Source: Rhizobiales bacterium Y(2018)
GTDB taxonomy: Bacteria > Pseudomonadota > Alphaproteobacteria > Rhizobiales > Aestuariivirgaceae
DNA: 64,000 nt
Reading direction: 5' to 3'
Assembly: GCA_005502925.1 (NCBI GenBank)
Contig: SCPD01000014.1
Coordinates: 1 to 64,000, forward strand
The notes below the pieces were generated by a model. The model was not told where the DNA came from, did not search any database, and was given only the letters and a program-made list of their open reading frames with translations. Made by a program: the position numbers and the translations under genes. Shown here piece after piece: positions 1 through 34,879 of this stretch (its first letter is position 1; every line of letters begins with the position of its first letter).

Positions 1-142
1 GCGCCAAGCCGGGGGAGACGGATGGGGGTCGGGTGGTCTTTCAGAAGCTTCTTCTTTGCGAATTTGACAGAGCACCCGACCCCCATCCGTCTCCCCCGGC
101 TTGGCGCCGGGTGAGCCACCTTCCCCGCAAGGGGGAAGGAGG
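1..142. repeat. Long perfect inverted repeat plus small GC hairpin (intergenic palindromic element)
   Basis: Bases 1-35 are the exact reverse complement of bases 73-107, separated by a 37-base loop, so the transcript could form a 35-bp stem. The left arm begins at the window edge and may be longer. A second hairpin follows (arms 120-126 CTTCCCC and 132-138 GGGGAAG, 5-base loop). It lies downstream of the leftward pxpC gene and may act as its terminator, but there is no T-tract. Bases 143-206 show nothing further. Confidence 0.7.
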
Positions 143-8240: not shown

Positions 8241-9104
8241 ATGGCGCGGTTCGCCCGAGTCCTGATTGCGGCTGCTCTGAGCGCTGTCGCTTTGGCGGGT
8301 CCGGCGGATGCCGCTGACCCGATCGGGAAGGTCGTCGCCGCGGCGGGGTCGCCCACAGGCTCCGGCCGGGCGCTCAGCCCCGGTGGTCCAATTTTCGAGA
8401 ACGACAAGGTCGTCACCGGCGGCGGCAATGTCCAGATCGTGTTTATCGACGACACCAAGCTGGTGGTCGGGCCCAATTCCACCCTGGTGATCGACCGTTT
8501 CCTGATGCGCGGCGGCAATCGGGCGCAGAAATTCTCGGTCGACGCCTTGCGCGGCACCTTCCGCTTCATCAGCGGCAAATCGGCCAAAAACGCCTATGAC
8601 ATCAGGACGGCGAATGCGACGATCGGCATCCGCGGCACCGCTTTCGATTTCTCGTCCGGCGGTGAGACTTTGATCGCGGTGTTCGAAGGGGGCGTCAGGC
8701 TTTGCGCTTCGGGAACTTGCGAGAGCATCCCCGAAGGCTGCGGCGTCGGGCGGGCACGGCGCAACGATGTCGATCAATTGGGCGGCCGGTCCAAGGGCCA
8801 GGCTCTGCGGAGCCTGCCTTACATCGTCAATCAGGGTTCGCTCAGCCGGTCCTTCCGGGTCAATACGCGCTCCTGCCGCTCAAGCCTCGGTCTGATCCTC
8901 GATTTCCAGAACAACAACCAGGGCAGCGGCCAGCAAGGGGCCGGCCCGAGCGGAGATACCGGCGGCGGCGGATCGCCCGGCGGTGGTCCAGGCGGTGGCG
9001 GCAGCAATCCCGGCGGCGGCAATCCGGGCAGCGGCACGGGCGGTGGTGGTAGCGGTAGCGGCGGTGGCGGCACCGGCGGCGGCCCTAGCGGCGGGGGACC
9101 CTGA
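8241..9104 (+). CDS. Secreted FecR-domain protein with glycine-rich C-terminal tail
   Basis: The 287-residue protein has a Sec signal peptide (ARVLIAAALSAVALAGPADA, residues 3-22) and a FecR domain from about 60 to 155 (VVTGGGNVQIVFIDDTKL, ALRGTFRFISGKSAKNAYDI, NATIGIRGTAFDF). The last 60 residues are almost only Gly, Ser, Pro and Thr in GGG and GSG runs. The FecR domain here is a periplasmic or surface module of the kind found beside large secreted proteins, not the TonB-linked sigma regulator, because there is no sigma or TonB receptor gene nearby. ATG 8241 follows GGGGA. It ends 31 bp before the first autotransporter, so the two are probably co-transcribed. Confidence 0.85.
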   Translation: MARFARVLIAAALSAVALAGPADAADPIGKVVAAAGSPTGSGRALSPGGPIFENDKVVTGGGNVQIVFIDDTKLVVGPNSTLVIDRFLMRGGNRAQKFSVDALRGTFRFISGKSAKNAYDIRTANATIGIRGTAFDFSSGGETLIAVFEGGVRLCASGTCESIPEGCGVGRARRNDVDQLGGRSKGQALRSLPYIVNQGSLSRSFRVNTRSCRSSLGLILDFQNNNQGSGQQGAGPSGDTGGGGSPGGGPGGGGSNPGGGNPGSGTGGGGSGSGGGGTGGGPSGGGP

Positions 9105-9135
9105 TGTCGAGCAGGTCCGGGCGAGGAGTGAGATA

Positions 9136-13239: not shown

Positions 13240-13314
13240 ATCGACATTGATCGGATGTCATAAAGCGCGCTAGGTCTTCCCGCGATTCATCATTCTTCGA
13301 CGGGAAACCCAGTC

Positions 13315-14427: not shown

Positions 14428-14518
14428 TCGTGCATCTATAAGTTGTGGCGTCGGAACCTTGAAACAAGCCTGACGATTCGACTTCCGATCTAGGATTTTA
14501 CTCTTGTAATTGACTGTT

Positions 14519-14549
14519 GCGAGAACGCCACACTCTCGCGTCACTTTTT
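14519..14549 (+). terminator. Terminator-like hairpin after the TIGR03032 gene
   Basis: GCGAGA (14519-14524) and TCTCGC (14534-14539) form a short stem with a 9-base loop, followed within six bases by five T. It is placed 90 bp after the stop codon and 98 bp before autotransporter 2. The rest of 14428-14646 shows only AT-richer sequence likely to hold the promoter of autotransporter 2. Confidence 0.5.
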
Positions 14550-14646
14550 GATTACCGAAGGGAATCTGTGGCGACTGTCCCACCTGTCAGTTAAACTCCG
14601 CGTAATGTGCGGTGATTTGCAATGCCGCGACCAGGCTGGGGATCCC

Positions 14647-18354: not shown

Positions 18355-18387
18355 AGAATCGTGTGACAGCGTGAACTCTACCCACGT

Positions 18388-18579
18388 TTCCCCTTCTCCC
18401 GCTTGCGGGAGAAGGTGGCCGAAGGCCGGATGAGGGTTTTCTCTCAGCTGTTGCATAATCTCAAATGTGGGAAAGCGTTGAAGCTTCGCTACTTGCTCTT
18501 TTGAAATGCTGTCGTGAGTTGGACCAACACCCTCATCCGCCCTATCGGGCACCTTCTCCCGCAAGCGGGAGAAGGGGAA
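18388..18579. mobile_element. Composite RIME-like element, 192 bp, copy 1 (MITE-like, terminal inverted repeats)
   Basis: The two ends (about 50 bp each) are inverted copies of one sequence. Each contains the hairpin CTCCCGCTTGCGGGAG or its variant and a CCTCATCCG motif pointing inward. The 90-bp centre is homologous, in reverse orientation, to the centre of 34647-34839 (shared blocks TTGAAGCTTCG, GCTGTCGTGAGTTG, CTCTCAGCT). It has no coding capacity, and no target-site duplication was found. It lies between autotransporters 2 and 3. Confidence 0.75.
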
Positions 18580-18650
18580 TGAGGGGGAGGGTATGAGCTC
18601 CGTCGCAGTCCCAAAACCCCGCCCCAAAACTTTATGATGAAAGCGCCGCA
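18571..18650 (+). repeat. 80-bp repeat module upstream of autotransporter 3
   Basis: This stretch, containing AGCTCCGTCGCAGTCC and GATGAAAGCGCCGCA, recurs with roughly 85 percent identity by eye at 22904-22985. Here it leads into the promoter region of the intact autotransporter 3. There it ends at the edge of the broken autotransporter. No internal palindrome is evident. Confidence 0.7.
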
Positions 18651-18729
18651 CCTCCCATATGGGAGGCCCGGAAATCTCCCGGCCCTGTAATTGTTTAAGA
18701 CGGAATAGTTGGGGACGGACGGGGGTAGA

Positions 18730-21700: not shown

Positions 21701-22833
21701 TCGATGGGCCATCGCAGGCGGACGACTTCCGTATCGCGGGCGGCGTGCTCAATGCCGGTTTCTTCGCCTGGGATCTGCGCCGCGTCCAGGATGGCATCAC
21801 GGTCATTCACGAACTCTACACGACCGGCTTCGGCGCCGGCGCCTATGAATTCGCCGCCGGCATCACCGGCGCCCAGGATATGTGGCAGCAGACGACCGGT
21901 ACGCTCTTGCAGCGCCAAGCCGATCTGCGGCCGCTGCTGGGGGCTGCGCAGGTGACGCCGGTCGCCGATTTCGCCGATCCGGTCGAACCGACGCCGGTCG
22001 GGCGCGTCACGCCGGGCCTGTGGTTCAAGGCGGTGGGCGGCTGGCTCGACCGCGACGGCGAGGAAGACAACAATGTCGTGCTCGACCGCAAGCAGACCGT
22101 CTTCGGCGGTATTGCCGGTTTCGATTTCGGCACCGAGAATGTGAGCGAGCAGGGCGACACGCTGCTGTTCGGCCTGTTCGGTGGCTATCTCACCTCCAAG
22201 CTCACTTTCGACTCCACCAATACGGAGTGGACCTATGACGGCCCGACGGTTGGTGCCTATGCGACTTATCTGAACGACGCGTTCTATGCCGACGTCGTCG
22301 TCAAGGCCGACTTCCTCGACATCGATATCGACACAGATGACCTGGCGCCCGACGCCGAGGCCGATACCAAGGCGACGAACATCGGCGGCCAGATCGATCT
22401 TGGCTACAAGATCGGCTTCGGCCAGGGCGCCTTCATCGAGCCGCAGGCATCGCTGTCGGTGCTTCATACCGAGATCGACGATATCGACGACATTTTCGGC
22501 GGCGCGGTTGAGTTCGCGGACGAGACGAGCGTGCGTGGCCGCCTGGGCCTTCGTCTCGGCGCCGATTATGAGCATGACGGCCTGCTGCTGACGCCCGATG
22601 TGACGGCGAGTGTGTGGCAGTCCTTCACTGGCGACAACACGGTAACGGTCTTCGCGCCGCTCACCCCGGCGAGCGATGTATCCGACGATCCGGGCGAGAC
22701 GGTGGGTGATGTGTCGCTCGGCTTAGGCGTGACGGCACCCGACGGCTGGACCGGCTTCCTGCGTGGCAATTACCAGTTCGCCGCGGATTTCGAGGCGGTC
22801 ACCGGCAATGCCGGGGTGAGGTATAGCTGGTAG
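18730..22833 (+). CDS. Autotransporter 3: beta-helix repeat protein with C-terminal barrel
   Basis: The third paralogue, 1367 residues, with the longest passenger (about 26 rungs). The signal peptide RNRLALTTILTVAPFFGYGR lies at 21-40, with C46-x10-C57 after it. The passenger is predicted beta-helix, with pivot helix GAQDMWQQTTGTLLQRQADL and a barrel from GLWFKAVGGW to NAGVRYSW. ATG 18730 follows GGGGG and begins MSSLGTPQKG. A TTG at 18709 in the same frame is less likely. Barrel segments are near-identical to autotransporter 2 (DETSVRGRLG, TPDVTASVWQSFT), whereas passengers diverge, which fits duplication followed by passenger drift or conversion of the ends. Surface adhesion is inferred. 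Confidence 0.92.
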   Translation: MSSLGTPQKGQGGRSGTRQLRNRLALTTILTVAPFFGYGRTAYAACDPAPVSPTFICTGNANVVTQAITANNANVSAAPGFSVIAPAGDGITITGDGHLRFTDENASIITGDEDGLSVNATGDAGITPGAVTVTVNSTITGGSNGIRAGNDGTGDLVVTANGKVTGERGTGIVAGVGSSGRDLTVNTGAQSDITGYRFGIDARSSGTGDIIINANGTVTAIDGEGIHAFNSEGRDLMITTGADSDITGNMFGIRGRNDGTGDLAITVNGDVTGTVREGVYAFANSAANNLTVTIAAGSVVKGGYDGVEARSTGRGALNVKVYGEVTGTVEKGIWVVNYAGTSATVTTGAQSAVTGYDGIGSRNDRGDFTITADGKVTGTDRNGIHAINTVGANDLKITTGAQSEITGKQFGIYARNFGRNIDITVNGEVTGEQGDGIRAENAYVSSPTPTGFGHDLKITTGAASSVTGYGNGIFARNNGTGDLTITADGEVTGETGYGIRARNWYDGDSLEIITGAGSEINGGLMGISARNGGAGALTITANGMVTGRQGPGINAQNGSASNSLKIVTGAASIIAGYDDGIRANDNGSGDLEITANGTVKGETRSGIFASNTANGNDLKITSGVGSTVEGVTYGISGRNSGNNFVISVAGDVTASAGDAITARNLDTANDLQVTVEATGMIIGERGGLVATSGGSGTSEIAIHGVVEGKQDFGLHAAIAENTNGLQIATSAGSLVKGRLNGIQAFGENESALDIAIDGTVRGMTENGILVRNEDSDDDDPTGDAVIRIGATGLVEGKLSGIDAGSEDGKVIVVNDGLVRNLSGAYADLVIKATGPGRIDNNGTLVGTVALGALDDTLTNTGLWAVGGNGAAASNFGGGIDVVNNAGILRAAHGIAEFESVYLANLEYLNNSGTISLVDGLASDIFALGPAANYVGLGGRLAVDAFLAPGSAGRSDSLSMVGSTSGTTYLVVNLTNPIGSAPNTDGIWVAVVDGPSQADDFRIAGGVLNAGFFAWDLRRVQDGITVIHELYTTGFGAGAYEFAAGITGAQDMWQQTTGTLLQRQADLRPLLGAAQVTPVADFADPVEPTPVGRVTPGLWFKAVGGWLDRDGEEDNNVVLDRKQTVFGGIAGFDFGTENVSEQGDTLLFGLFGGYLTSKLTFDSTNTEWTYDGPTVGAYATYLNDAFYADVVVKADFLDIDIDTDDLAPDAEADTKATNIGGQIDLGYKIGFGQGAFIEPQASLSVLHTEIDDIDDIFGGAVEFADETSVRGRLGLRLGADYEHDGLLLTPDVTASVWQSFTGDNTVTVFAPLTPASDVSDDPGETVGDVSLGLGVTAPDGWTGFLRGNYQFAADFEAVTGNAGVRYSW

Positions 22834-22881
22834 ACGTCATGAGCGGAGAAGTTCGTCCAAGTACATAAGGCCTTGCCAGGC

Positions 22882-22985
22882 TTCCCCTTCTCCCGCAAGC
22901 GGGAGAAGGGGGAATGAGGGGAGTGCATGAAGCTCCGTCGCAGTCCAAATACACGGCCCCAAAACGTCGTGATGAAAGCGCCGCA
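22882..22985. repeat. RIME-like palindrome plus second copy of the 80-bp module
   Basis: A palindrome at 22882-22914 (arms around GCAA, CTCCCGC/GCGGGAG core) is followed by the 22904-22985 module shared with 18571-18650. The module ends abruptly at GAAAGCGCCGCA, and the next base starts autotransporter barrel coding sequence without an upstream passenger. The 50 bp before it (22834-22881) show nothing recognised. Confidence 0.7.
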
Positions 22986-23364
22986 ACGGCCTCTTTGTCG
23001 AACCGCAGGCCTCGCTGTCGGTCCGGCATACCGAGATCGACGATATCGACGACATCTTCGGCGGTTCGGTCGTTTTCGACGACACAACCAGCGTCAAGAG
23101 GCGTCTTGGCTTGAGGCTCGGCCACAATTTCACCTCAGGTAATTCTGTTGTCTATTCATCGGATGTGACGGCGAGCGTCTGGCAGGATTTCTCCGGCGAC
23201 AACAACGCCACCATCACGGCGATCGACTTCCCCGCGGCGGAAGATCCCGGCCAGACGATCGGTGATCTGTCGCTGAATAAGTTCACCGCTGCAACGTCCT
23301 GCATCCGAAGAGAATCTTCCGCCACCGTCGACAACCTCAGATACGCCCATTCGAATCAACTGTA
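22986..23364 (+). pseudogene. Remnant of a fifth autotransporter (barrel fragment)
   Basis: Reading in one frame to the TAG at 23362-23364, the segment encodes FVEPQASLSVRHTEIDDIDD, then FDDTTSVKRRLGLRLG, and SSDVTASVWQDFSGDNNATI, all matching barrel strands of the four intact paralogues. It lacks signal peptide, passenger and the first half of the barrel. After GDLSL the sequence departs from the family and lacks the terminal RYSW strand, so it is broken at both ends. The 5' break coincides with a repeat module boundary. The first half resembles autotransporter 3, the second resembles 1 and 4, so it is a distinct paralogue or a recombinant. It is probably not expressed as a functional protein. 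Confidence 0.85.
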
Positions 23365-23371
23365 GTAATTC

Positions 23372-23400
23372 GCCAACGGAAATGCGATCGCTTCCGTGGC
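23372..23400. terminator. Hairpin downstream of the autotransporter remnant
   Basis: GCC-A-ACGGAA pairs with TTCCGT-GGC around a 10-base loop (GCGATCGC inside). There is no T-run after it. It could be the old terminator of the broken gene or a regulatory palindrome before autotransporter 4. Confidence 0.35.
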
Positions 23401-23510
23401 AAAATGGCGCGCGGGTGCAAAATTTCTGTTGCAGTAATCCAATGTCAGTTTAATCCTGTCCGCCAATGGGCGCCGATTTGCGCCGCAGTGCATATTTTGG
23501 GGGACGGTAC

Positions 23511-26489
23511 GTGATACGGAAGACCTGGACAGCATCTTCGGATGCTTCTCGCGCGCAACGTGCAAGCCGCGCATTTCGCAATCGATTGGCGCTGACGACG
23601 GTGCTGACCGTGGCGCCATTCATGAGCTATGGCCGCCAGGCCGAGGCCGCCTGCGCGCCCGATCCGGTGGCGCCGAGCTATTCCTGCAGCGACGCCAATA
23701 CGACGCTGAGCTTTCTCAATATCGACAGTGCCGCCATCACGACGGTGGCCGGCTTCAGCGTAACCGCCACGGGGGTCGAGCACGGCATCATCGTCACCGG
23801 CGACGGCCAGCTGAGCTATATCGACACCAACGCCTCGCCGATCACGAGTGAAAACGGCACCGGCCTCGTCGTCCATGCGACGGGCAATGTGGAAGGCGAG
23901 ATCAACGAGGATGGCGGGATCGTCATCGACACGAACGGCGCCATCACCGGCGCCGCTGGCATCGATGCCCGCAATGACGGCGCCGGCGATGTCTCGGTGA
24001 CGGTCAGCGGCGCGGTGACGGGGAGAACCAGTGACGGCATCTACGCGCGCAATTACGGACACGATTTGACGATCACCACCGGCGCGGGCAGCGTCACTGG
24101 CGGTAACGACGGCATCGAAGCCCGCAATGACGGCTCCGGGGATCTCGAGATCACCGCCGAAGGTGAAGTCACCGGCCGCAGCGGCGCTGGCATCGAGGCC
24201 GAAAACTCCTCCGACGGCGTCAATCTGACGATCATCACCGGCGCGCAGAGCGTAATAACCGGCTCCGACAGCGGAATCTACGCGCGCAATCGCGGCGCCG
24301 GCGATCTCGAGATCACGGTCGATGGCCGTGCTGTCGGGCTGGAAAATGACGGGATATTTGCCGAGAACGGCAGTTATGACGGGGACGAGTACAGTATCAG
24401 AGGCGTCAATCTTACCGTCAAGACGGGCGCTGAGAGCGTGGTCGTCGGAGCCAGCGATGGTATCGACGCGGAGAACTATGGTCGCGGCAAGCTCGAGATC
24501 ACCGTCAACGGCGCGGTGACCGGGATCGAGGACAACGGCATTGAAGCGGACAATTCACATTACGGTACTGATCTCACGATCACCACAAATGTCGGTAGCG
24601 TGGTTCGAGGCGGCGATGACGGCATCAATGTCGAAAACAACGGCGACGGAGATCTCGCCATCAACGTCAATGGCAGGGTAACTGGCGGGGAGGATGGCAT
24701 TGACGCCGAGAATGACGGATCCGGCGACACGAGGATCACGGTAGGAACGAGCGGTATCGTCGAGGGCAGCGATTCCGCGATCGATGTCGATTCCGACGAC
24801 GACCAGGATATCTTTATCACCAACTACGGCACGGTCAGGACTCTGTCGGGTGATTCGACCGCCGTCGCCATCACGACCTATGGCGGCGACACGGTGATCG
24901 AGAATCACGGCACCATCACCGGTGTGCTGCGTTTTGCCGAAAACGACGATGATCTCGACAATTACGGCGTCTGGAACACCGCCGGCGGCCGCAATGAATT
25001 CGGCCTCGACACTGACCGCGTTTACAATGAAGGCGTGCTGGTGGCGGCGAATGACGCACAAGCCAATGAGACGACCGAGCTTCTCGATCTCGAGGAATTC
25101 CGCAATGACGGCGGCCTGCTGTGGCTGGCCGACGGCGCGGTCGGGGATATTCTCCGGATGCGCGGTGAGACCGAAAGCGGGTTTGAGGACGCCCTGCGCT
25201 ACTCTGGCGAGGATGGCTATCTGGCAGTCGATGCAGTGCTCGGCGCCGGCGCGGCCGGCGAGGCGGACATTCTCGAGATCATCGGTGATGTCGATGAAGA
25301 AAGCGCCACCACCATCGCCGTCAATGTCGTCGGTGTTTCAGGCGCCAATGTGCTCGGCATTCCGGTCGTCAAGGTCATCGACGGCAAAACGGGGCCTGAC
25401 AATTTCAGCCTTGAAGGCCCGGTCCATGCCGGCCTCTTCGCCTGGGATCTGAGATTCGATGGCGAAGAGAACTGGTACGAGCTCTTCACCTCAGGCGTCG
25501 GTATAGGGGGTTATGAGATGGCGGCCGGTCTCACCGGCGCCCAGGACATCTGGCACCAGACCACCGGCACGCTGGGGCAGCGCCAGGCCGATCTGCGCCC
25601 GCTTCTCAACGGCACGCAGGTGACGCCGGTCGCCGACTTCACCGAGCCGGTCGCGCCGACAGCCGCGGGCCGTGTCGGTCCAGGCTTCTGGTTCAATGCG
25701 GTGGGCGGCTGGCTCGACCGTGACGCCGAGAGCGACGGTTATACGCTCGACCGCAAGCAGTCGATCTATGGCGGCCTCGCCGGCTTCGACTTTGCCACCG
25801 ACTCGACAGGTGGAGATACCTGGCTGTTCGGCCTGTTTGGCGGCTATCTGAGCTCGACGCTGAAGTTCAGCGAGACCAACAGCAAGTGGACCTATGACGG
25901 CCCGACGATCGGCGCCTATGCCACCTATCTGAACGACGCCTTCTATGCCGATGTGACGGTCAAGGCCGACTTCCTGTCGATCGACATCGAGCAGGACGAC
26001 CTGGGCGCCGATGACAGCGATACCGACGGCATCAATCTCGGTGGCCGTATCGACGCCGGCTACAAGATCGGCGGCGGGACAGGCGCTTTCGTCGAGCCGC
26101 AGGCCACTCTGGCCGTGGTCAATACCGATATCGACGATGCCGAGGTCGGCGGCGGCGATGTCGATTTCGACAGCGAGACCAGCGTCAAGGGCCGGCTCGG
26201 CCTGAAGCTCGGCTATGACCACACCGCTGCCAACGCCATGATCTTTTCGTCGGACCTGACGGCGAGCGTCTGGCAGGAGTTCAACGGCAGCAACGACGCC
26301 ACGATCTCTGCGGCGGGCCTCAGTGACTTCGGCGTGTCGGACGACACGATCGAGACGCTCGGCGACATTTCGCTGGGCTTCAGTGTCACCGCGACCGAAG
26401 GCTGGTCGGGATTCCTCCGCGCCAACTACCAGTTCGCCGAGGACTTCGAGGCGATCACCGGCAATGCCGGGCTGAGATACTCCTGGTAA
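23511..26489 (+). CDS. Autotransporter 4: short-passenger beta-helix protein with C-terminal barrel
   Basis: The smallest paralogue, 992 residues. The signal peptide FRNRLALTTVLTVAPFMSYG (22-41) is followed by C48-x10-C59. Only about 12 rungs of the GIDAEN type are present (residues 130-440), half of the other three. The pivot helix (GAQDIWHQTTGTLGQRQADL) and a complete barrel ending NAGLRYSW are intact. I prefer GTG 23511 because GGGGGA lies just upstream and the resulting N-terminus matches the length of the paralogues. ATG 23466 in the same frame is possible. The passenger is markedly acidic. It probably forms a shorter surface stalk. Role in adhesion is inferred. Confidence 0.9.
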   Translation: MIRKTWTASSDASRAQRASRAFRNRLALTTVLTVAPFMSYGRQAEAACAPDPVAPSYSCSDANTTLSFLNIDSAAITTVAGFSVTATGVEHGIIVTGDGQLSYIDTNASPITSENGTGLVVHATGNVEGEINEDGGIVIDTNGAITGAAGIDARNDGAGDVSVTVSGAVTGRTSDGIYARNYGHDLTITTGAGSVTGGNDGIEARNDGSGDLEITAEGEVTGRSGAGIEAENSSDGVNLTIITGAQSVITGSDSGIYARNRGAGDLEITVDGRAVGLENDGIFAENGSYDGDEYSIRGVNLTVKTGAESVVVGASDGIDAENYGRGKLEITVNGAVTGIEDNGIEADNSHYGTDLTITTNVGSVVRGGDDGINVENNGDGDLAINVNGRVTGGEDGIDAENDGSGDTRITVGTSGIVEGSDSAIDVDSDDDQDIFITNYGTVRTLSGDSTAVAITTYGGDTVIENHGTITGVLRFAENDDDLDNYGVWNTAGGRNEFGLDTDRVYNEGVLVAANDAQANETTELLDLEEFRNDGGLLWLADGAVGDILRMRGETESGFEDALRYSGEDGYLAVDAVLGAGAAGEADILEIIGDVDEESATTIAVNVVGVSGANVLGIPVVKVIDGKTGPDNFSLEGPVHAGLFAWDLRFDGEENWYELFTSGVGIGGYEMAAGLTGAQDIWHQTTGTLGQRQADLRPLLNGTQVTPVADFTEPVAPTAAGRVGPGFWFNAVGGWLDRDAESDGYTLDRKQSIYGGLAGFDFATDSTGGDTWLFGLFGGYLSSTLKFSETNSKWTYDGPTIGAYATYLNDAFYADVTVKADFLSIDIEQDDLGADDSDTDGINLGGRIDAGYKIGGGTGAFVEPQATLAVVNTDIDDAEVGGGDVDFDSETSVKGRLGLKLGYDHTAANAMIFSSDLTASVWQEFNGSNDATISAAGLSDFGVSDDTIETLGDISLGFSVTATEGWSGFLRANYQFAEDFEAITGNAGLRYSW

Positions 26490-26513
26490 TTTAGAATTCT
26501 TTCCGAACTTCCC

Positions 26514-26541
26514 TCCTCTCCCATCCTTCGGACGGGAGAGG
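26514..26541 (+). terminator. Hairpin between autotransporter 4 and the convergent DUF5681 gene
   Basis: CCTCTCCC and GGGAGAGG arms flank a short TTCGG-containing loop, 25 bp after the autotransporter 4 stop. It can serve both convergent genes. There is no clear T-tract on the plus strand. Confidence 0.5.
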
Positions 26542-26591
26542 GGGAAACGCGGAAGGACTTCGCTTTCGCATATTTTCATATTGCGCGCGTA

Positions 26592-27014
26592 TCACTTCGG
26601 CGGCGCGGGATCGACGATCCTGAAGATTACCTCTCTCGGCTCCTCTGCGCCGGGATCGAGCGCGCCGAAGTCGTCCGTGCCGGATGCAGTATCTGTCTCG
26701 CTGTCGCTCACCATCTTGAGAAAGGCGGCCTGGGCGCGCAGATCGCCTTTCGCTGCTGCGGCGATCAAAGATCTGATCACCGCGCGGGCGATCGGCATTG
26801 CGACGTCCTCGCCATCCTCATTGATATCGATGAGGCGATAGGCTTCCTCGCTGACCAGCATGTCGAACGGCTTCTGTGGTTTTTCCTGTCGGGGCTTGTT
26901 CCGGCTGCCTTTGCGCCGGCCCGACGGATTACCGGACTGGCCTTTCTGGAAACGCTTTCCAACTGGCGGCCGGCGATAGCCGATGCCCGGAGAGGAAGTT
27001 TTGTCGTCGCTCAT
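26592..27014 (-). CDS. DUF5681 domain-containing protein
   Basis: A 140-residue basic protein with the DUF5681 hallmark VGKRFQKGQSGNPSGRRKGS near residues 17-36, which resembles DNA-binding or phage-related small proteins. A helical segment (IARAVIRSLIAAAAKGDLRA) follows, and the C-terminus is acidic then proline-rich. ATG 27014 is chosen over 27038 because GGAGG lies six bases before it. In many alphaproteobacteria such genes sit near prophage terminase or mobile regions, but no phage gene is seen here. It is an isolated copy next to the autotransporter array. Function unknown. Confidence 0.75.
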   Translation of the reverse strand: MSDDKTSSPGIGYRRPPVGKRFQKGQSGNPSGRRKGSRNKPRQEKPQKPFDMLVSEEAYRLIDINEDGEDVAMPIARAVIRSLIAAAAKGDLRAQAAFLKMVSDSETDTASGTDDFGALDPGAEEPREVIFRIVDPAPPK

Positions 27015-27129
27015 CGCATGCCTCCGAATTCTCTTCACTTCGTGGGCTTGTCTTGCCTATGAGTTCACGAAGTCAAGGCGGTGGCACGAAAGAGAAGGGC
27101 TCCGCTGCTTTCAGGAGCGAAGCCCAATT

Positions 27130-27183
27130 CCCTGTAGATCCCTGCAGATCCGCTGCAAATCCCCTGCTGATTCCGCTGCAAAA
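27130..27183. repeat. Degenerate 10-11 bp tandem repeat
   Basis: Five consecutive units resembling CC(G)CTGCAGAT run through this stretch: CCCTGTAGAT, CCCTGCAGAT, CCGCTGCAAAT, CCCCTGCTGAT, TCCGCTGCAAA. It is intergenic between the ureohydrolase stop (27208) and the DUF5681 start. Two more GCGGAA-type words follow at 27188-27205. The rest of 27015-27207 shows no gene. Confidence 0.55.
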
Positions 27184-27207
27184 GAACAGCGGAACAACAG
27201 CGGAAGG

Positions 27208-28161
27208 TCAGGCCCGGCGCTTCACGCCCGGCAGCACGCAGAGCATCTCGAAGAGGAGATTGGCGCCGGTCAGCGCCGTGTTGCCGCTCGGATCGTAAGG
27301 CGGCGACACTTCGACGAGATCGCCGCCGACGAGGTTGAGGCCGTAAGCGCCGCGGATGATCTCGAGGCCCTGGATGGTGGTGAGGCCGCCGATCTCCGGC
27401 GTGCCGGTGCCGGGCGCGAAGGCCGGGTCGAGGCTGTCGATGTCGTAGCTCAGATAGACCGGGCCATCGCCCATCTGCTTGCGCACTTCTTCCATGAGAG
27501 GGGTGAGCGACTTGTGCCAGCATTCCTCGGCCTGGACGACGCGGAAGCCCTGCTGGCGCGGCCAGTCGAAATCATCGGCGGCGTAGCCCGTCGCGCGCAG
27601 GCCGATCTGGATGCAGCGTTTGGTGTCGAGCAGGCTGTCTTCGACGGCGCGGCGGAACGGCGTGCCATGGGCGATCTTCTCGCCGAACATGTTCTCGTTG
27701 ATGTCGGCATGGGCGTCGACATGGATGAGGCCGACGGGGCCGTATTTCTCGGCCATGGCGCGCAGGATCGGATAGGTCAGCGTATGATCGCCGCCGAGCG
27801 TCAGAGGCTTACAGCCATTCGCGATGATGCCGCGATAGGCATCGGTGATGATGTCCATGTTTTTCGGCAGGTTGAACGTGTCGATGGCGACATCGCCGAT
27901 ATCGGCCACCATCAGGCTGTCGAAGGGCGCGGCGCGCGTCGCCATGTTATAGGGACGGATGAGGCAGGATTCGGCACGGATCTGGCGCGGCCCGTAACGC
28001 GTGCCGGCGCGGTTCGAGGCGCCGATATCCATGGGGATACCGACGAAGCAGGCATCAAGCCCCTCGGTGCCGACTTGCGTCGGCAGGCGCATCATGGTGG
28101 CCGGGCCACCGAAGCGCGGCATCTGGTTGCCGCCCAAGGGCTGGTTCAATGTACGTGTCAC
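27208..28161 (-). CDS. speB: Agmatinase-family ureohydrolase, probably guanidinobutyrase
   Basis: The 317-residue manganese ureohydrolase has all metal motifs: GGDHT (about 125), DAHADIN (about 150) and SYDIDSLDPAFAPGTGTPE (about 230). Family members release urea from agmatine or related guanidino acids. The start (LNQPLGGNQMPRFGGPATMM) and the MFGEKIAHGTPFRRAVE segment resemble Pseudomonas guanidinobutyrase GbuA from memory more than E. coli SpeB, so 4-guanidinobutyrate is the likelier substrate. The symbol speB is the generic one. Translation starts at GTG 28161 with AGAGGTG upstream. It stands alone, leftward, with the DUF559 element immediately upstream. No dedicated regulator is adjacent. 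Confidence 0.88.
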   Translation of the reverse strand: MTRTLNQPLGGNQMPRFGGPATMMRLPTQVGTEGLDACFVGIPMDIGASNRAGTRYGPRQIRAESCLIRPYNMATRAAPFDSLMVADIGDVAIDTFNLPKNMDIITDAYRGIIANGCKPLTLGGDHTLTYPILRAMAEKYGPVGLIHVDAHADINENMFGEKIAHGTPFRRAVEDSLLDTKRCIQIGLRATGYAADDFDWPRQQGFRVVQAEECWHKSLTPLMEEVRKQMGDGPVYLSYDIDSLDPAFAPGTGTPEIGGLTTIQGLEIIRGAYGLNLVGGDLVEVSPPYDPSGNTALTGANLLFEMLCVLPGVKRRA

Positions 28162-28255
28162 TTTGGCACCTCTTCTAGGCTGGATTTCGGCCCACAGGTG
28201 ACACGATGGAGAGGCTTAGGCAAGAGCCCCACCCGTCTCGCCGCTGTCTCCTGGT

Positions 28256-28746
28256 TTCCCCTTCTCCCGCTTGCGGGAGAAGGTGCCCGAAGGGCGGATG
28301 AGGGTGTATGGTGCCGCTATGACAACGCGGCAAATTGAGCCCAAGCGCCTCGATCAGGCTCGCCGCCTACGCCGGAGTCAAACGCCGGCGGAGGAGAGGT
28401 TGTGGTCGGGCCTGCGCGCTCGGCGGTTGCAAGGACATAAATTCTTCGCCAGCATTCTATTGGCCCCTTTACGGCCGATTTCCTTTGTCGCGAAGCCGCT
28501 CTCATCATCGAGGTCGATGGTGCGACTCACTCCAAAGATCGCGATATGGATTACGACGCGTGTCGCACGGCCTATCTCGGGTCACAAGGATATCGCGTCC
28601 TCCGTATCCTCAATGACGACGTATTTCATCGTTTCAACGACGTAATGGACATGGTCCTCCTGGTGCTCGCGGACAACCTGCCGCCGGACTGACCAACACC
28701 CTCATCCGCCCTTCGGGCACCTTCTCCCGCAGGCGGGAGAAGGGAA
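28256..28746. mobile_element. 491-bp unit: inverted RIME-like ends enclosing a DUF559 gene
   Basis: The left end 28256-28308 and right end 28693-28746 are inverted copies: CCCTTCTCCCGC(T/A)(T/G)GCGGGAGAAGG outside and a CTCATCCGCCC(TT)CGGGC segment inside. The DUF559 reading frame starts 11 bp inside the left repeat and its TGA abuts the right repeat. The ends are the same family as those of 18388-18579 and 34647-34839. No target duplication was recognised. Confidence 0.65.
28319..28692 (+). pseudogene. Frameshifted DUF559 (PD-(D/E)XK nuclease-like) gene
   Basis: The first frame from ATG 28319 reads LDQARRLRRSQTPAEERLWS then GLRARRLQGHKF, the standard DUF559 N-terminus. At about 28442-28448 the frame breaks. 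One frame over it continues RQHSIGPFTADFLCREAALI, then IEVDGATHSKD, YLGSQGYRVLRILNDDVFH, and ends at TGA 28690-28692. A single-base loss after AAATTC explains the shift, as the normal text would be KFRRQHSIGPF. The family has the fold of Vsr-like and PD-(D/E)XK nucleases, with EVDG as the metal-site part. It is inactive unless the frame is restored. A sequencing error remains possible. Confidence 0.85.
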
Positions 28747-28771
28747 GTCTCCGGCAGGACCGCGCGGGCCG

Positions 28772-30400
28772 TTACTTCAACTCCGCCGCCTTTGTGGTCT
28801 GCGCCAGCTCGGCGAAATTGTCGCGGATATAAGCGGCCGAACGCAGCGCCAGGGCCGAGATGGTCGGCGTCGGATTGACCACGCCGCCGGTCGTGAGCAC
28901 GCTGCCGTCCATGATGAAGAGATTGGGCACGTCCCAGCTCTGATGCCATTTGTTGACGACCGACGTCTCGGGATCGGAGCCCATCCGGCAGGTGCCGATC
29001 ATGTGCCAGGCGGGCGTGCGGTAGACGCCTTCCGCATCGCGATAATCCTGCAGGTGATATTCGAACGCGCCCGCCGCCTTGAAGATGTCCTCGATGCGGT
29101 CGAGCATGTAGTTCATCATGCGCTTGTCGTTTTCGCCGGGCGTATAATGCGTCTCGGCCGCCGGCACGCCGTCCTCGTCGGTCAGCGTCTTGTGCAGTGT
29201 CACGCGGTTGTCGGGGTTGGGCAGGTCGTCGCCAATGGCGAAGACGCCGATGCCATGGCCGAAGTGACGCTCGAACCACTTGTGATGGTCCTTGCCCCAG
29301 GGCGCCTTGGAGCTCGAGAACCACCCCGCCGCCGTCTCGCCCGCCGAGCCGGTCGAGGTGATGCAGTTGAAGTTGAAGCCGTTGACGAAGCCGCGCGAGA
29401 TGTCGGTCTCGGCGAATTCGCGCGATATCATCGAGGCGACATAGCCGGTATGGCCGTCGACCGCCTCGTCGACGAACATCTCGCCCGCCACCAGCGTGTG
29501 GTGGAGCAGGTTGCGGCCGACCTGGTCGGAGCTGTTGGCGAGATTGTCGGAGGCAAGCAGCATCCGCGGCGTGCCGACGCCATTGGCGGCGACGAGCACG
29601 ACACGCGCCTTCTGCATATGGGTGTGGCCGGTGTTGCGGTCGATATAGACCGCGCCGGTGGCGCGGCCATCGGCGCCCTTTTCGATCTTCAGCACGCGGG
29701 CATTGATGCGCAACTCGGTGCCGGCTTCGAGCGCCTTGGGAACGATCGACATCGAATATTTGCTCATCGAGCCGCGCGGGCAGCCGCTGCACGAGCCGCA
29801 GCCATTGCAGGCGGGCCGGCCGTCATAGTCTTCCGAGATGACGCCGGCCTCGCATGGCCACCAATGCCAGCCGAGCCGGTCAAAGGCATCGCCGAGCCGC
29901 TTCGACACTTTGGACGGCGGCAACGGTCCGGTGGGCGAGCGCTCGCGCGGCGGCATGGCGAGATCGCCATTGAGGCCCGACACGCCGACCAGGCGGTCGG
30001 CTTCCTCATAGAAGGGCGCAAGGTCCTCGTAGCTCATCGGCCAGTCGGGCTGCAGCCCGTGCTCGGTGCCTTTGCGGAAATCGGACGGGCGGTAGCGCGG
30101 CCAGATGGCGCCATAGACATTGGTCGAGCCGCCGACGCCGTTCCACATCAGGATCTGCGACGAGTCCGACTTGACCGGATAGTCGTCGGGATGGCGCCTT
30201 TTGGCGACATCGGGATTCCAGATGGTGCGGCGCTGCCAGGCCCAGTCGGCATGGAGCTGCGGATGGTCCTTGGCTTCGACCCAGGAACCTTGCTCGAGGC
30301 AGACCACGTCGAGGCCGGCGCGGGAGAGGACGAGAGCGGCGAGCGAGCCGGTGGCGCCGGCGCCGATGATGAGGACGTCACAGACGCGTTGCGTGGTCAT
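28772..30400 (-). CDS. GMC family FAD-dependent oxidoreductase (gluconate-dehydrogenase-like large subunit)
   Basis: A 542-residue flavoprotein, last gene of the leftward operon. The N-terminal FAD fold is DVLIIGAGATGSLAALVLSR (residues 8-27). A cysteine cluster CNGCGSCSGCPRGS near residue 180 resembles the iron-sulphur site of gluconate and fructose dehydrogenase large subunits. The C-terminal catalytic region has AWHMIGTCRMG and VNPTPTISALALR, giving the His/Asn pair of GMC enzymes. It oxidises an alcohol or sugar acid. Its start overlaps the upstream subunit-3-like gene by four bases (ATGA), strongly suggesting a complex. No cytochrome c subunit is present nearby. No Tat or Sec signal is seen, so export would need the partner. 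Confidence 0.88.
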   Translation of the reverse strand: MTTQRVCDVLIIGAGATGSLAALVLSRAGLDVVCLEQGSWVEAKDHPQLHADWAWQRRTIWNPDVAKRRHPDDYPVKSDSSQILMWNGVGGSTNVYGAIWPRYRPSDFRKGTEHGLQPDWPMSYEDLAPFYEEADRLVGVSGLNGDLAMPPRERSPTGPLPPSKVSKRLGDAFDRLGWHWWPCEAGVISEDYDGRPACNGCGSCSGCPRGSMSKYSMSIVPKALEAGTELRINARVLKIEKGADGRATGAVYIDRNTGHTHMQKARVVLVAANGVGTPRMLLASDNLANSSDQVGRNLLHHTLVAGEMFVDEAVDGHTGYVASMISREFAETDISRGFVNGFNFNCITSTGSAGETAAGWFSSSKAPWGKDHHKWFERHFGHGIGVFAIGDDLPNPDNRVTLHKTLTDEDGVPAAETHYTPGENDKRMMNYMLDRIEDIFKAAGAFEYHLQDYRDAEGVYRTPAWHMIGTCRMGSDPETSVVNKWHQSWDVPNLFIMDGSVLTTGGVVNPTPTISALALRSAAYIRDNFAELAQTTKAAELK

Positions 30401-30930
30401 CTCTTGAGCCCCCAATTCTCGGTGCGGCTGGTGGCGAGATCGAGCGAGGAGATATCGATGCGTTTCACCCGATCGGTCGGCACATAGGCGCCGCGCGCAT
30501 GTTTCGGTCTGTCGCGCTCGATGTCGAAACGCTGGCGGGGATAGCCGCTTTTGTGCGGGCTCATCTGATAGGGCCGGCCCGACTGGCGGATTGCCTCGGC
30601 GACGATCGGGCTTTCATAATAGGCGAAAACCGCCGCGGCTCGGATGCGGTCGAAGAGATCAGGCTCCTGCTTGGCCAGCGTCTCGACGATGGTGTGGCGC
30701 TCGCTTTCGCTTTTGCCGGTGAAGGGGGCGCCGGCGGCGAGGAGGGCTGCGGCGAGACGCAACACGTCCTTCTCGCCGTTCTCTTCCGTGAAGCGCAGCA
30801 GCATGATGCCCTGCACGCCGATGCTCGCGGCGGAAGGCCAGGTGGCATCGCCCGGTATCAATTCATCGGCCAGTTGGGCAAAAAGGGCCGCGAGCTCCCT
30901 GGGACTGGTCTGGGTCGCTTGGGCGGACAT
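30397..30930 (-). CDS. Gluconate 2-dehydrogenase subunit 3 family protein
   Basis: The 177-residue protein precedes and overlaps the GMC gene by four bases. It has the subunit-3 pattern LFAQLADELIPGDATWPSAA near the N-terminus and a C-terminal RQRFDIERDRPKHARGAYVP stretch. In the gluconate dehydrogenase family subunit 3 binds the flavoprotein and usually bears a Tat signal for co-export. Here no twin-arginine signal is visible, so the complex may be cytoplasmic. ATG 30930 shares its A with the TAA of the upstream aldehyde dehydrogenase (TAATG), so I reject the longer frame to 31068. It is translationally coupled on both sides. Confidence 0.8.
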   Translation of the reverse strand: MSAQATQTSPRELAALFAQLADELIPGDATWPSAASIGVQGIMLLRFTEENGEKDVLRLAAALLAAGAPFTGKSESERHTIVETLAKQEPDLFDRIRAAAVFAYYESPIVAEAIRQSGRPYQMSPHKSGYPRQRFDIERDRPKHARGAYVPTDRVKRIDISSLDLATSRTENWGLKR

Positions 30931-32396
30931 TATTTCGAGGCTCCGGATTTGTGGGTGATGGTGATCATCTTGAGCTCGGTCATGGCTTCGAGCGTATGCA
31001 TGCCGCCGAGCCGGCCGATGCCGCTTTTGGTGCCGCTGCCGCCGCCGAAGGGCAGGTGGATTTCCCAATAAGTGCTGCCGGCATTGATGTTGACGATGCC
31101 GGCGGGAATGGCTTTGGCAATCTCGATGCCTCGCGCGATGTCACGGGTGAAGATGCCGACGCTCAGTCCGTAATCGGTGTCGAGCGCGATCGACAGCGCC
31201 TCGTTCGCATCCTTGAAGGGGATCACCGGCACCACAGGGCCGAAGGTCTCCTCATGCGCGACGCGCATCTGCGGCGTGACGCCGGTCAGGATGGTCGGCT
31301 CGAAATAGAACTGACCACCAAGATCGGGTCGCGCTTTGCCGCCCGCCGCGGCGCGCGCCCCTTGGGCCACCGCGTCGTCGACATGTTCCTTCACCTTGGC
31401 CGCCACCTTGGCGTTGTTGAGTGGCCCCATGGTCGTGCCCTGGTGGAAGGGATCGCCCAGCACGTGCTTCTTCGCACGTTCGACCAGCATGTCGCCGAGC
31501 TTGTCGGCGATCGAGGCTTCGGCGAGAACGCGCCCCGTCGCGGCGCAGACCTGGCCGGCATTGAAGAAGGCGCCGCCCGCCGCGGCATCGGCCGCCAATT
31601 CGAGATCGGCATCGGCGAAGATGATCACCGGGCCATTGCCGCCAAGCTCGAGCAGCAAGGGCTTGCCGGCGCCGCGCTCGGCGATGCGCCTGCCGGTGGC
31701 GGCGCTGCCGGTGAAGCCGATCGCCACGACATCGGGATGCGTCACGACAGCGTCACCGGCGGTGGCGCCTTCGCCGATCACCAGATTGACGACGCCCTTG
31801 GGCAGGCCCGCTTCGGCGATCACCGCCATCAATTCGGCGGCGACGAGGGATGTGGTGGGCGCCGGCACCCAGACGATGGTGTTGCCGGTGGCGATGCCGG
31901 GGGCGAGATATTCGACCGGAATATTGACCGGGAAATTCCACGGCGTGATGACGCCATAGACGCCGCGCGCCTGGCGGATGGTCATTGCGAGCTTGGTCGG
32001 GTCTTCAGTCGGCAGTGTCGAGCCGCCCATCTGCTTGACGAGCTCGGAAGCGAGGCGGAAGCCGTCGGCGGCTTTCGTCACTTCGCCTGTCGCCTCTTTG
32101 AGAATTTTGCCTTGCTCGTGCGACAGCGTGCGGGCGAGCCGGTCGCGATTGGCATCGATGGCCGACGCGATGGCGACGCACAAAGCGGCGCGCTGGAAAA
32201 CCGGCACCTGCGCCCATGAACGGGCCGCTTTGGCGGCGGCGACCGCCTGGTTCACCTCTTCCGCGCTGGATTTGGGCAGGCTGGCAATGGCTTCCCCGGT
32301 TGCGGGATTGATCGCCTTCATGGTCTCGCGTGCGGTGACCCACTCACCGCCGATGAAGTTGCGCACCTGGCGCTGGTCCTGGCTTCTGTTGTCCAT
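30930..32396 (-). CDS. NAD(P)-dependent aldehyde dehydrogenase
   Basis: A typical 488-residue aldehyde dehydrogenase. It begins RNFIGGEWVTARETMKAINP. The catalytic glutamate is in LLLELGGNGP and the nucleophile in FFNAGQVCAATGR. FTGSAATGRRIAE forms the cofactor region, and the C-terminus holds LPFGGGSGTKSGIGRLGG. It is closest in style to the succinate-semialdehyde/vanillin type, but the substrate cannot be told. ATG 32396 has GGAGG seven bases upstream. In the operon it would oxidise the aldehyde formed by the GMC enzyme or released by the amidohydrolase route. It is 11 bp from the amidohydrolase and shares one base with the following gene. Confidence 0.92.
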   Translation of the reverse strand: MDNRSQDQRQVRNFIGGEWVTARETMKAINPATGEAIASLPKSSAEEVNQAVAAAKAARSWAQVPVFQRAALCVAIASAIDANRDRLARTLSHEQGKILKEATGEVTKAADGFRLASELVKQMGGSTLPTEDPTKLAMTIRQARGVYGVITPWNFPVNIPVEYLAPGIATGNTIVWVPAPTTSLVAAELMAVIAEAGLPKGVVNLVIGEGATAGDAVVTHPDVVAIGFTGSAATGRRIAERGAGKPLLLELGGNGPVIIFADADLELAADAAAGGAFFNAGQVCAATGRVLAEASIADKLGDMLVERAKKHVLGDPFHQGTTMGPLNNAKVAAKVKEHVDDAVAQGARAAAGGKARPDLGGQFYFEPTILTGVTPQMRVAHEETFGPVVPVIPFKDANEALSIALDTDYGLSVGIFTRDIARGIEIAKAIPAGIVNINAGSTYWEIHLPFGGGSGTKSGIGRLGGMHTLEAMTELKMITITHKSGASK

Positions 32397-32407
32397 TTGA
32401 TGTCCTC

Positions 32408-33547
32408 CTAGTTCGATGAAGGGCTTGCAACCGTCCGGCCATTGACGATCAGGCCCGCCGCAAAAAGCCGTTTGTCGGCGACGACCGTCTCGCCGCGTGA
32501 ATCGGTGAGCGGGAACGAGCCGTCGCGCAGCTCGAGAATGCTGGCATCGCCGGCCGAGCCGATCTTGAACGTGCCGAGATCGGGCCGCTTCAACGCCTGC
32601 GCCGCATTTATGGTCGAGGCGGCGATGACCTCTTTCAGCGAGAAGCCGAGCTTGAGGAATTTCGACAAGGTCGTCACCTGGTCGAAGACCGGCCCGTCGA
32701 GATTGAGCGCATGAATGTCGGAGGAGATCGTGTCGGGGCGGAAGCCCTGCTTCAGCATCGCATAAGCGGTCTTCCAGCCGAAAGAGCCCATGCCATGGCC
32801 GATATCGAAGATGACGCCGCGCTGGCGGGCCGCGAGCACCTGCGGTTTCACCTTGCCATCGGCCGTCACCGGCGCATTGGGGAAGGGGCGGTAGCAATGG
32901 GTCAGGATATCGCCGGGGCGCAGATGCTCGACGAGCTCTTCATAGGACGGCGGCGGCTCGTCGATATGCGCCATCAAGGGCAGGCCGGTCTCGTCCGCCA
33001 CCTGCAGCGCCACATGGAGCGGTGCGATACCGGCGGCACCGCTGGCTTTGGCGCCGATGCGCACCTTGATGCCGATAATCACATCCTTGTTGGCATTGGC
33101 GACCGCGACCGCGTCGCGGGCGCTCAACAGGCGCAGATCATGGCCTTCACCCACCATGATGTTGTGCGAGAAGGCATAGATGCCGGCGAAGGACACATGC
33201 AGATAGGCCAGGATGCGCACTTCGGAGCGTTCGATCACATGCTTGCGGAAGCCGGGGAAATTGCCGGGGCCGGCGCTGCCGGTGTCGACGCAGGTCGCCA
33301 CCGCGCTGGCGCGGCCGAAAGCATCGGGATCGACACCGAGCGACGTGCCGCCCCAATAGACATGAGTGTGGAGATCGATGAGGCCGGGCGTCACGATGCG
33401 GCCCGACACGTCATGGGTCTCTTTGCCTTCGAGATCCTTGCCGATGGCGGCGACCTTGGCATCGGCGAAGGCGATGTCGGCGACGCGGTCGAGATTCTGC
33501 GAAGGATCGAGCAGGCGGCCGTTCTTGAGGACGATATCGTATTGCAT
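32408..33547 (-). CDS. Amidohydrolase/deacetylase family metallohydrolase
   Basis: The 379-residue enzyme belongs to the dihydroorotase-like amidohydrolases. It has the first metal pair in PGLIDLHTHVYWGG (about residues 54-67), a candidate carboxylated lysine in IGIKVRIGAK near 160, further histidines (LMAHIDEPPP, ILTHCYRPF), and the last aspartate in ISSDIHALN. It hydrolyses a cyclic or linear amide or ester. Its position between the ABC ATPase and aldehyde dehydrogenase genes suggests it acts on the imported compound. Close relatives are annotated as deacetylases with unproven substrates. The spacing to the ATPase gene is 10 bp, so it is part of the same transcript. Confidence 0.85.
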   Translation of the reverse strand: MQYDIVLKNGRLLDPSQNLDRVADIAFADAKVAAIGKDLEGKETHDVSGRIVTPGLIDLHTHVYWGGTSLGVDPDAFGRASAVATCVDTGSAGPGNFPGFRKHVIERSEVRILAYLHVSFAGIYAFSHNIMVGEGHDLRLLSARDAVAVANANKDVIIGIKVRIGAKASGAAGIAPLHVALQVADETGLPLMAHIDEPPPSYEELVEHLRPGDILTHCYRPFPNAPVTADGKVKPQVLAARQRGVIFDIGHGMGSFGWKTAYAMLKQGFRPDTISSDIHALNLDGPVFDQVTTLSKFLKLGFSLKEVIAASTINAAQALKRPDLGTFKIGSAGDASILELRDGSFPLTDSRGETVVADKRLFAAGLIVNGRTVASPSSN

Positions 33548-33557
33548 GGTCTCGTTT

Positions 33558-34580
33558 CTATTGCGGTTTGATGCGGTTGCCGCTTTGGGCGTCGAAGAAG
33601 CAGGCGGAACGGGGATCGGCGGTGAGTGTCAATTGCGCACCGGGGGTGAGGCCTGAGGGATCGGCGCAGGCGCCCTTCACCATATGGTCGCCCACCATCA
33701 CTTCGAGAAAGTGGATGGGGCCGGCCGATTCGACGAAAGCCAGCTCGCCGGTGAGGCTGATCCCGTCGGTACGTCCGGCGGCGGGAGAAAGATCATGCGG
33801 GCGGATGCCGATGATCGTGCCGCCATTGTCATTGCGCCCGGCGAGGGCGGCCGGAAGGAAATTCATCTGCGGGCTGCCGATGAAGCTCGCCACGAACTGG
33901 TTGGCGGGCTCCTTATAGACCGTCATGGGGGACGCGACCTGCTGGATGACGCCGTCCTTCATTACCGCGATGCGGTCGGAAAGCACCAGCGCCTCCTCCT
34001 GGTCATGGGTGACGAAGATCACCGTCATCTTCAATTCGCGCTGCAGGCGGCGGATCTCGGAGCGCATGCGCACGCGGAGACTCGCGTCGAGATTGGACAG
34101 CGGCTCATCCATCAAAAGCGCCGCCGGATTGCGCACGATGGCGCGGCCGACCGCGACGCGCTGGCGCTGGCCGCCCGACAGCTCATTGGGCAGCCGGTCG
34201 AGCAGGGCCTCGAGGCCGAGCGTCTCGGCGGCCCAGTCGACCTGGCGGCGGATGAGATCGGAGGCCACCTTCTGCTGGCGCAGCGGGAAAGCGATATTGT
34301 CGCGCACCGCCATGTGCGGATAGAGCGCGTAGTCCTGGAAGACCAGCGCGATATTGCGCTCGCGCGGCGACAATTCCGTCATGTCCTGGCCGTCGAAAGA
34401 GATGGTCCCGGTATTGATGTCCTCGAGGCCGGAGATGCAATAGAGCAAGGTCGACTTGCCGCAGCCCGAGGGACCGAGGAAGGAGATGAACTCGCCGTCG
34501 GCAATCGAGAGGTCGAGCTGCTTCAGGATGTCGACCTTGCCGTAGCTCTTGCCGATGCCGGAGAGGGTGATGGAGGCCAT
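33558..34580 (-). CDS. ABC transporter ATP-binding protein (UgpC/MalK type)
   Basis: A 340-residue ATPase with Walker A GPSGCGKST (about 36-44), Q-loop FQDYALYPHM, signature LSGGQRQRVAVGR, Walker B LLMDEPLSNLDA and H-loop VIFVTHDQ. The C-terminal third is the MalK/UgpC regulatory OB-type domain (IGIRPHDLS). It energises the fused permease 300 bp upstream. ATG 34580 starts MASITLSGIGKSYG, and the longer frame is rejected. The gap to the permease is filled by a 193-bp composite repeat, so the element has inserted inside the operon, and a downstream promoter or read-through must supply this gene. The carbohydrate or polyol class is inferred from the family. Confidence 0.92.
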   Translation of the reverse strand: MASITLSGIGKSYGKVDILKQLDLSIADGEFISFLGPSGCGKSTLLYCISGLEDINTGTISFDGQDMTELSPRERNIALVFQDYALYPHMAVRDNIAFPLRQQKVASDLIRRQVDWAAETLGLEALLDRLPNELSGGQRQRVAVGRAIVRNPAALLMDEPLSNLDASLRVRMRSEIRRLQRELKMTVIFVTHDQEEALVLSDRIAVMKDGVIQQVASPMTVYKEPANQFVASFIGSPQMNFLPAALAGRNDNGGTIIGIRPHDLSPAAGRTDGISLTGELAFVESAGPIHFLEVMVGDHMVKGACADPSGLTPGAQLTLTADPRSACFFDAQSGNRIKPQ

Positions 34581-34646
34581 TATGCGTACTCCTGCATCCT
34601 TGCTCTGACGTCGAGACGGTGTCGCAACGTGTCGAACCATCCTTGA

Positions 34647-34839
34647 TTCCCCCTTCTCCCGCTTGCGGGAGAAGGTGCCCGACAGGGCGGATGAGGGTGT
34701 TGGTTCAACTCACGACAGCCTTTCAAGGGAACAAGATAACGAAGCTTCAATGTTTCCCAGACTTGCGGTTTCATGGAAGCTGAGAGAACACCCTCATCCG
34801 GCCTTCGGCCACCTTCTCCCGCAAGCGGGAGAAGGGGAA
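34647..34839. mobile_element. Composite RIME-like element, 193 bp, copy 2 (MITE-like)
   Basis: Same architecture as 18388-18579 but in the opposite orientation: two inverted ends of about 50 bp with CTCCCGC/GCGGGAG hairpins and a related centre. When reverse-complemented, blocks CTCTCAGCTTCC, TTGAAGCTTCG and GCTGTCGTGAGTTG align with copy 1. It fills most of the 299-bp gap between the permease and ATPase genes. The remaining 40 bp on each side show nothing more. Confidence 0.75.
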
Positions 34840-34879
34840 AGTTGGCGCGAGAGGAGATGGTAGTCATTGTGCTTTGTTC

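Follow-up and report, generated by a model that had tools for sequence, protein, structure and literature searches.

Several described systems come close to the locus reported here. The CGTC-tagged REPs are a large palindromic family that, according to the authors of its description, has no known enzyme (PMC3733652). Targets of up to nearly 60 bp are given for the EDxHD enzymes, a group of homing endonucleases by description (PMC3943268), and a DUF559 gene has been assigned to the EDxHD family (PMC9403480). The DUF559 protein YcjD has been linked to Vsr through profile comparison (PMC1189080). In Caulobacter, a DUF559 protein named VsrA is reported to be responsible for the SOS response in a methylase mutant, and the authors of that study read it as a mismatch-repair enzyme (PMC12907096). 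Our search of the open-access literature, with subscription journals mostly outside its range, found no report linking DUF559 to repeats of the kind described below. We analysed a stretch of 64,000 nucleotides from a Rhizobiales genome (the window), in which a DUF559 gene lies between two inverted hairpin repeats, here called arms. We consider it probable that this gene and its arms constitute a compact mobile unit with an EDxHD/Vsr-type nuclease, cognate arms and non-autonomous short relatives.

The features of the window are collected in Table 1. An earlier note, made from the letters of this DNA, had described a 491-bp unit with a DUF559 gene inside inverted repeats, a longer frame beginning within the arm, and a frameshift in the local copy. 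All three descriptions held. The inverted arms (28259-28307 against 28696-28744) are identical at 48 of 49 positions, and each arm carries two hairpins, a strong outer one and a small second one (z of -3.8 and -3.6 against shuffles). The half-site CCCTTCTCCCGC, with at most one mismatch, occurs 15 times in the window against 0.89 expected. The longer frame is present and starts from a TTG at 28271. The DUF559-like part opens with the ATG at 28319, 12 bp past the left arm, and its TGA stop (28690-28692) lies 3 bp short of the right arm as aligned. The two gene pieces, 28346-28444 and 28444-28668, are read in different frames, and the window copy is thus frameshifted. With NCBIfam, one DUF559 model was matched, far under its cut-off. 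The PADLOC matches, to DpdF and a model labelled homing endonuclease, were partial.

Table 1. Repeat units, arms and gene located in the window.
Feature	Position	Strand	Remarks
Complete DUF559 unit (left arm, gene, right arm)	28256..28746	+	491 bp
Left arm	28256..28307	+	Outer palindrome CCTTCTCCCGC-tt-GCGGGAGAAGG, small second hairpin, tail GGATGAGGGTG
DUF559 gene, frameshift near 28444	28319..28692	+	Pfam PF04480 matches in both pieces; frames read separately
Right arm, inverted copy of the left arm	28693..28746	-	From alignment and fold
192-bp short unit, arms as around the DUF559 gene, non-coding centre	18388..18579	+	
193-bp short unit, family of the 18388 element, opposite orientation	34647..34839	-	Site empty in sister G003
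Solo palindrome TTCCCC..GGGGGAA	22882..22913	.	Looks like an excision scar
Partial short unit, clipped by the window start	1..140	.	Arms resemble those at the DUF559 gene of L020

The two short units at 18388 and 34647, which had been noted as sharing the ends of the DUF559 unit, proved to be bounded by those ends and to be copies of one element in opposite orientations, with 175 of 189 aligned bases identical. The solo palindrome between them may be a scar left by recombination of two arm palindromes. An Rfam search of window positions 18000-35200 returned eight matches (E up to 5), none of which reached the family cut-off, and the match at the 18388 element was to a microRNA model. Positions 9100-26500 hold a row of several large autotransporter-like genes with many internal repeats that are 60-80% alike.

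Across the host genome, the arm palindrome (up to two mismatches) was present in 170 copies, and a reversed control pattern in none. Pfam PF04480 (DUF559) gave seven matches, all above the curated cut-off and including the two pieces in the window. Six DUF559 genes were found in this genome and all six are flanked by arms, four by type A (that of the window), one by type B (L018) and one by type C (L020); at L016, L017 and L019 the layout is as in the window unit. The earlier note had suggested counting how many repeat pairs enclose DUF559 frames and how many enclose short centres. In addition to the six pairs around DUF559 genes, we inspected 28 other repeat sites, three from the window and the rest mostly the first listed rather than a random draw. 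Among these, 21 are convergent pairs that span 150-255 bp, enclose short centres and represent dispersed inverted hairpin doublets matching the flanks of the genes, while 7 hold one palindrome by pattern. By eye, many of the 21 pairs seemed to have a centre in common. Symmetrical CCC..GGG palindromes, the form expected of a scar, were found at 15 exact sites in the genome; four that we inspected stand alone, and one (L188) lies inside a pair. A box, CTGTCCGGGGAAA, was seen in identical or nearly identical form about 25-45 bp outside L016, L017, L018, L191, L192 and L201, as if the units sit in a larger mosaic.

The protein is best explained as a small nuclease of the EDxHD/Vsr type, judging from profile comparison and a predicted structure. 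Across 20 relatives, no variation was seen at E15, D44, E55, D57, H61 and D70, and a profile of 20 homologues compared with the PDB matched 3hrl and I-Bth0305I (E 7e-5). Matches to cholera toxin B in the same search (E 0.5-0.8) were taken as chance. The structure model (mean pLDDT 88) represents a homologue, from L071, rather than the window protein. With Foldseek, this model retrieved 3hrl first, then the catalytic domain of I-Bth0305I (E 6e-5, TM 0.67 by query length), and then Vsr. Foldseek also matched the L071 model weakly, at E 0.004 and up, with several mitoribosome proteins of Toxoplasma. The DUF559 genes are under purifying selection: dN/dS was 0.03-0.12 in 33 of 55 gene pairs, the remaining pairs being saturated or lacking synonymous change.

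The flanks of 16 of 30 prepared sites were searched in four sister genomes. Twelve of the 16 were aligned with G003, the other four being L185, L191, L197 and L016. The earlier note had pointed to empty sites in sister strains as a check, and four short-unit sites are indeed empty in G003, namely 34647 in the window, L186, L198 and L015. The L015 site is empty in G001 and G004 too, and the L198 site in G002 too. At the DUF559 sites L018 and L019, G003 lacks the unit but has other sequence in its place. L187 and L207, an orthologous site with closely matching flanks, hold a lone palindrome and a full unit, respectively. At five sites (L193, L005 and L001 and, less clearly, L020 and L192), the hairpin unit present belongs to a different type. 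The site of the DUF559 gene in the window is occupied in the sisters by short units of 171 bp (G003) and 146 bp (G002), measured from palindrome to palindrome, and by a type-B-kind unit in G001; the 30 bp directly outside the arms differ between the window's genome and G003. As orthologous places hold differing units, these places have been in use more than once, in line with units landing in repeats or scars already present, or with hot spots. The inserts at the four clean empty sites exceed the unit, measured from palindrome to palindrome, by about 56-94 bp, and the unit boundaries are therefore provisional. By eye, no consistent target-site duplication was seen at the aligned empty sites, nor was a common target found, the outer flanks being just partly alike. 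Neither an insertion event nor cleavage was observed. CGTC-type palindromes (CCCGGCGAAAGCCGGGAT or alike) were seen at L214 in G003 and L221 in G001, and both sites hold DUF559-type units in the window's genome.

The short units had been proposed to be MITE-like derivatives of a DUF559 master. In G002, a 294-bp unit adjoins a 447-bp DUF559 unit; 285 of its 294 bases are identical to the latter, and one internal stretch of 151 bp is missing. This unit is clearly an internal-deletion derivative of the neighbouring DUF559 master. The proposal thus stands for this pair; the 192-bp type of the window has the ends alone in common with DUF559 units.

Our best reading is that a nuclease drives these repeats, in a REP-like mobile system that would depend on a homing-type enzyme instead of an HUH transposase. 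The paired hairpin arms would be the cognate ends of the nuclease, and the short units with the same arms would be non-autonomous relatives mobilised in trans, of which some would have arisen from a DUF559 master by internal deletion. We infer that the nuclease recognises arm DNA and cuts or nicks the arm or the target site, after which host repair would copy the unit in, as in homing. Recombination between arm palindromes would remove the inside and leave a one-palindrome scar, which may in turn be a new landing site. PD-(D/E)XK nucleases are not known to carry out strand transfer themselves; on this ground, and in view of the reused sites, we favour the homing-type route, which taken alone falls slightly short of an even chance.

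The arms also fold strongly as single-stranded DNA and their inverted doublets resemble REPINs as described in PMC3116915, and these properties would suit a nuclease that moves the unit by a single-strand route, nicking the folded arms, rather than by homing-type repair. We regard such a route as possible though doubtful. The sole aligned scar keeps the whole palindrome, as arm recombination would leave it. In addition, PD-(D/E)XK enzymes are not known to form a covalent intermediate when they hydrolyse DNA.

That gene and repeats are associated follows from several independent tests. The 200 bp on either side of each DUF559 domain were compared for inverted similarity, and we took 20 or more as the strict score and control windows of the same spacing as the null. 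The strict score was reached by 95 of 130 DUF559 loci and by 7 of 2,024 control windows. In relatives, the numbers were 38 of 53 loci and 0 of 655 windows; 8 of 61 match rows were left unscored, as they were fragments, represented the window gene's second piece or had not been retrieved. In named genomes, they were 57 of 77 loci and 7 of 1,369 windows; these loci are the best 80 of at least 569 candidates, less 3 whose flanks were too short, so that the sample favours close homologues. DUF559 genes elsewhere thus also carry such flanks, a check for which the earlier note had called. The other 35 of the 130 loci scored below 20, and 24 of them below 15. Within 400 bp of these 24 loci, a strict CGTC-type pattern was found at none, and CGTC-type repeats were rejected as the flanks of arm-less DUF559 loci. 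Flanks mismatched from two different loci reached 20 in 139 of 1,000 draws, since the arms have a general plan in common: CCCTCTCCC-loop-GGGAGAGGG, followed by either a linker or a second hairpin and, adjoining the gene, GGGTGAGGG. Among the best 80 of at least 569 candidates, clear arms were seen in Alpha-, Beta- and Gammaproteobacteria, desulfobacterial lineages, Chloroflexi and Gastranaerophilales. At L053 and L045 (G001), the inverted similarity extends far past the arms, and at L053 the outer hairpin and linker are mirrored too, as in nested units.

Eight plasmid DUF559 loci, outside the 130, were scored with 300-bp flanks. L153 reached 106, a clear pair, L156 (21) and L155 (18) were weaker, and the remaining five of the eight, both E. 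coli records included, stayed below 18. In a plasmid-only collection, arm-like matches occurred on many Sinorhizobium plasmids and the S. meliloti DUF559 protein on a single plasmid record. These plasmids offered no clean empty site for a DUF559 unit. The E. coli DUF559 gene is ycjD, located between sapF and fabI, an arrangement matched with full query coverage in 3,361 of 5,375 matching E. coli genomes. In the ycjD record L152, an arm-like repeat lies just downstream of the gene, and the core of this repeat has matches in 4,984 of 5,426 E. coli genomes, at a median of 17 places per genome. This repeat may be the Box C element. Three ycjD-less strains were viewed in search of an empty site; in each, efflux genes follow sapF, and hence there is no clean empty-site comparison.

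Arm type also follows the protein. Between genomes, arm similarity correlated with protein identity (r 0.49; 41 loci in 17 genomes, leaving out the window copy and loci scoring below 18), and this value was reached in 0 of 5,000 permutations that shuffled arms among genes within genomes. Arm type tracking the protein indicates that arms and gene travel and diverge together, a co-variation that could stem from linkage alone.

We then compared repeat copy number, counted with a generic arm pattern, in 288 genomes of the class besides the window's own, defining a strong DUF559 match by E up to 1e-20. At least 20 copies were present in 25 of the 71 genomes with a strong match and in 1 of the 217 others, and at least 5 copies in 45 of 71 and 8 of 217, respectively. 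Fewer than 5 pattern copies were found in 26 of the 71, and one of the 8 others has 44 copies with no DUF559 among the matches listed. Of 15 genera that hold both kinds of genome, 10 have a higher mean copy number where the gene is present, 2 a lower one and 3 the same. Within the window's genus, the five genomes contain 163, 78, 32, 13 and 8 type-A palindromes; each of the 35 further genomes searched has 0 or 1. G002 (78 palindromes) and G001 (8) have no intact type-A gene among the scored loci, and these counts speak against a simple gene-repeat rule. G002 also has a DUF559 fragment with a stop, outside the typed loci.

The same genomes bear on a rival idea, in which a RAYT-like or IS transposase moves the repeats and the DUF559 gene is cargo caught between two copies. 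The published REP enzyme is the RAYT/TnpA_REP transposase, as given in PMC3116915 and PMC8266576, and the host genome does have one Y1_Tnp gene. However, this gene lies elsewhere, without such arms in its 3.3-kb locus, and between the repeats there is DUF559 and no Y1 HUH transposase gene. In the 288 genomes, Y1_Tnp (the RAYT and IS200 domain), the transposase kind tested, did not predict repeat number: at least 5 copies were reached in 12 of 59 genomes with the domain and 41 of 229 without, and at least 20 copies in 8 of 59 and 18 of 229. Where Y1 was present without a strong DUF559 match, 0 of 41 genomes reached 5 copies. We therefore rejected a Y1 transposase as the driver of the repeats on the basis of copy number. 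Chance cargo, moreover, should not be one family in many lineages with matching arm types, and we consider this explanation unlikely. The likeness to REP/RAYT systems drawn in the earlier note consequently holds for function and not for the enzyme, which appears to be of the EDxHD/Vsr type.

That the DUF559 protein is a Vsr-like host repair enzyme whose gene rides on repeats serving mainly as hairpins, the arms not being acted on, would agree with the predicted fold match to Vsr, with the mismatch repair argued for VsrA in PMC12907096 and with the settled look of ycjD between sapF and fabI, but is quite unlikely, as it leaves unexplained the arm types that follow the protein, the near-identical copies within one genome, the deletion derivative and the copy-number link.

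Taken together, these genes and repeats look like a widespread, so far unnamed kind of mobile DNA. We lean slightly towards the broader view that DUF559 nucleases and their arms form a separate class of REP system in many bacterial phyla, in which a homing-type nuclease and co-diversified arms would build populations of palindromic repeats; intergenic CCCTCTCCC..GGGAGAGGG..GGGTGAGGG repeats would be its products, and perhaps the E. coli core too. Unit structure, arm type, copy number and empty sites connect a further repeat class with a single, poorly characterised nuclease family. If the proposal is true, many DUF559 proteins would gain a function, bacterial MITEs a transposase-free route, and small nucleases, each with a pair of sites about 50 bp long, would become available.

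Vsr mismatch endonuclease resembles the protein in fold, and a Caulobacter family member bears the name VsrA in PMC12907096; in contrast to Vsr, the DUF559 units here are repeat-flanked and multi-copy, in a context like that of mobile elements. The CGTC-tagged REPs described in PMC3733652 likewise form doublets, are mostly alphaproteobacterial and have no known dedicated transposase in that account, whereas their stems are shorter and their tag differs from the arms here. EDxHD homing endonucleases such as I-Bth0305I share the sequence and fold of the catalytic domain, and they too are small nucleases, of the kind that would spread their own DNA via host repair. Unlike them, the present units have palindromic arms and many non-coding relatives, and no intron or intein context was seen. 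With REPtrons (RAYT/TnpA_REP, GTAG-tagged REPs and REPINs), finally, the units have in common a gene beside its cognate hairpin repeats, dispersed inverted doublets and several types per genome. In place of the HUH tyrosine transposase of REPtrons, however, they carry an apparent EDxHD/Vsr-type nuclease, and their arms have a conserved tail, GGRTGAGGG or GGGTGRGG.
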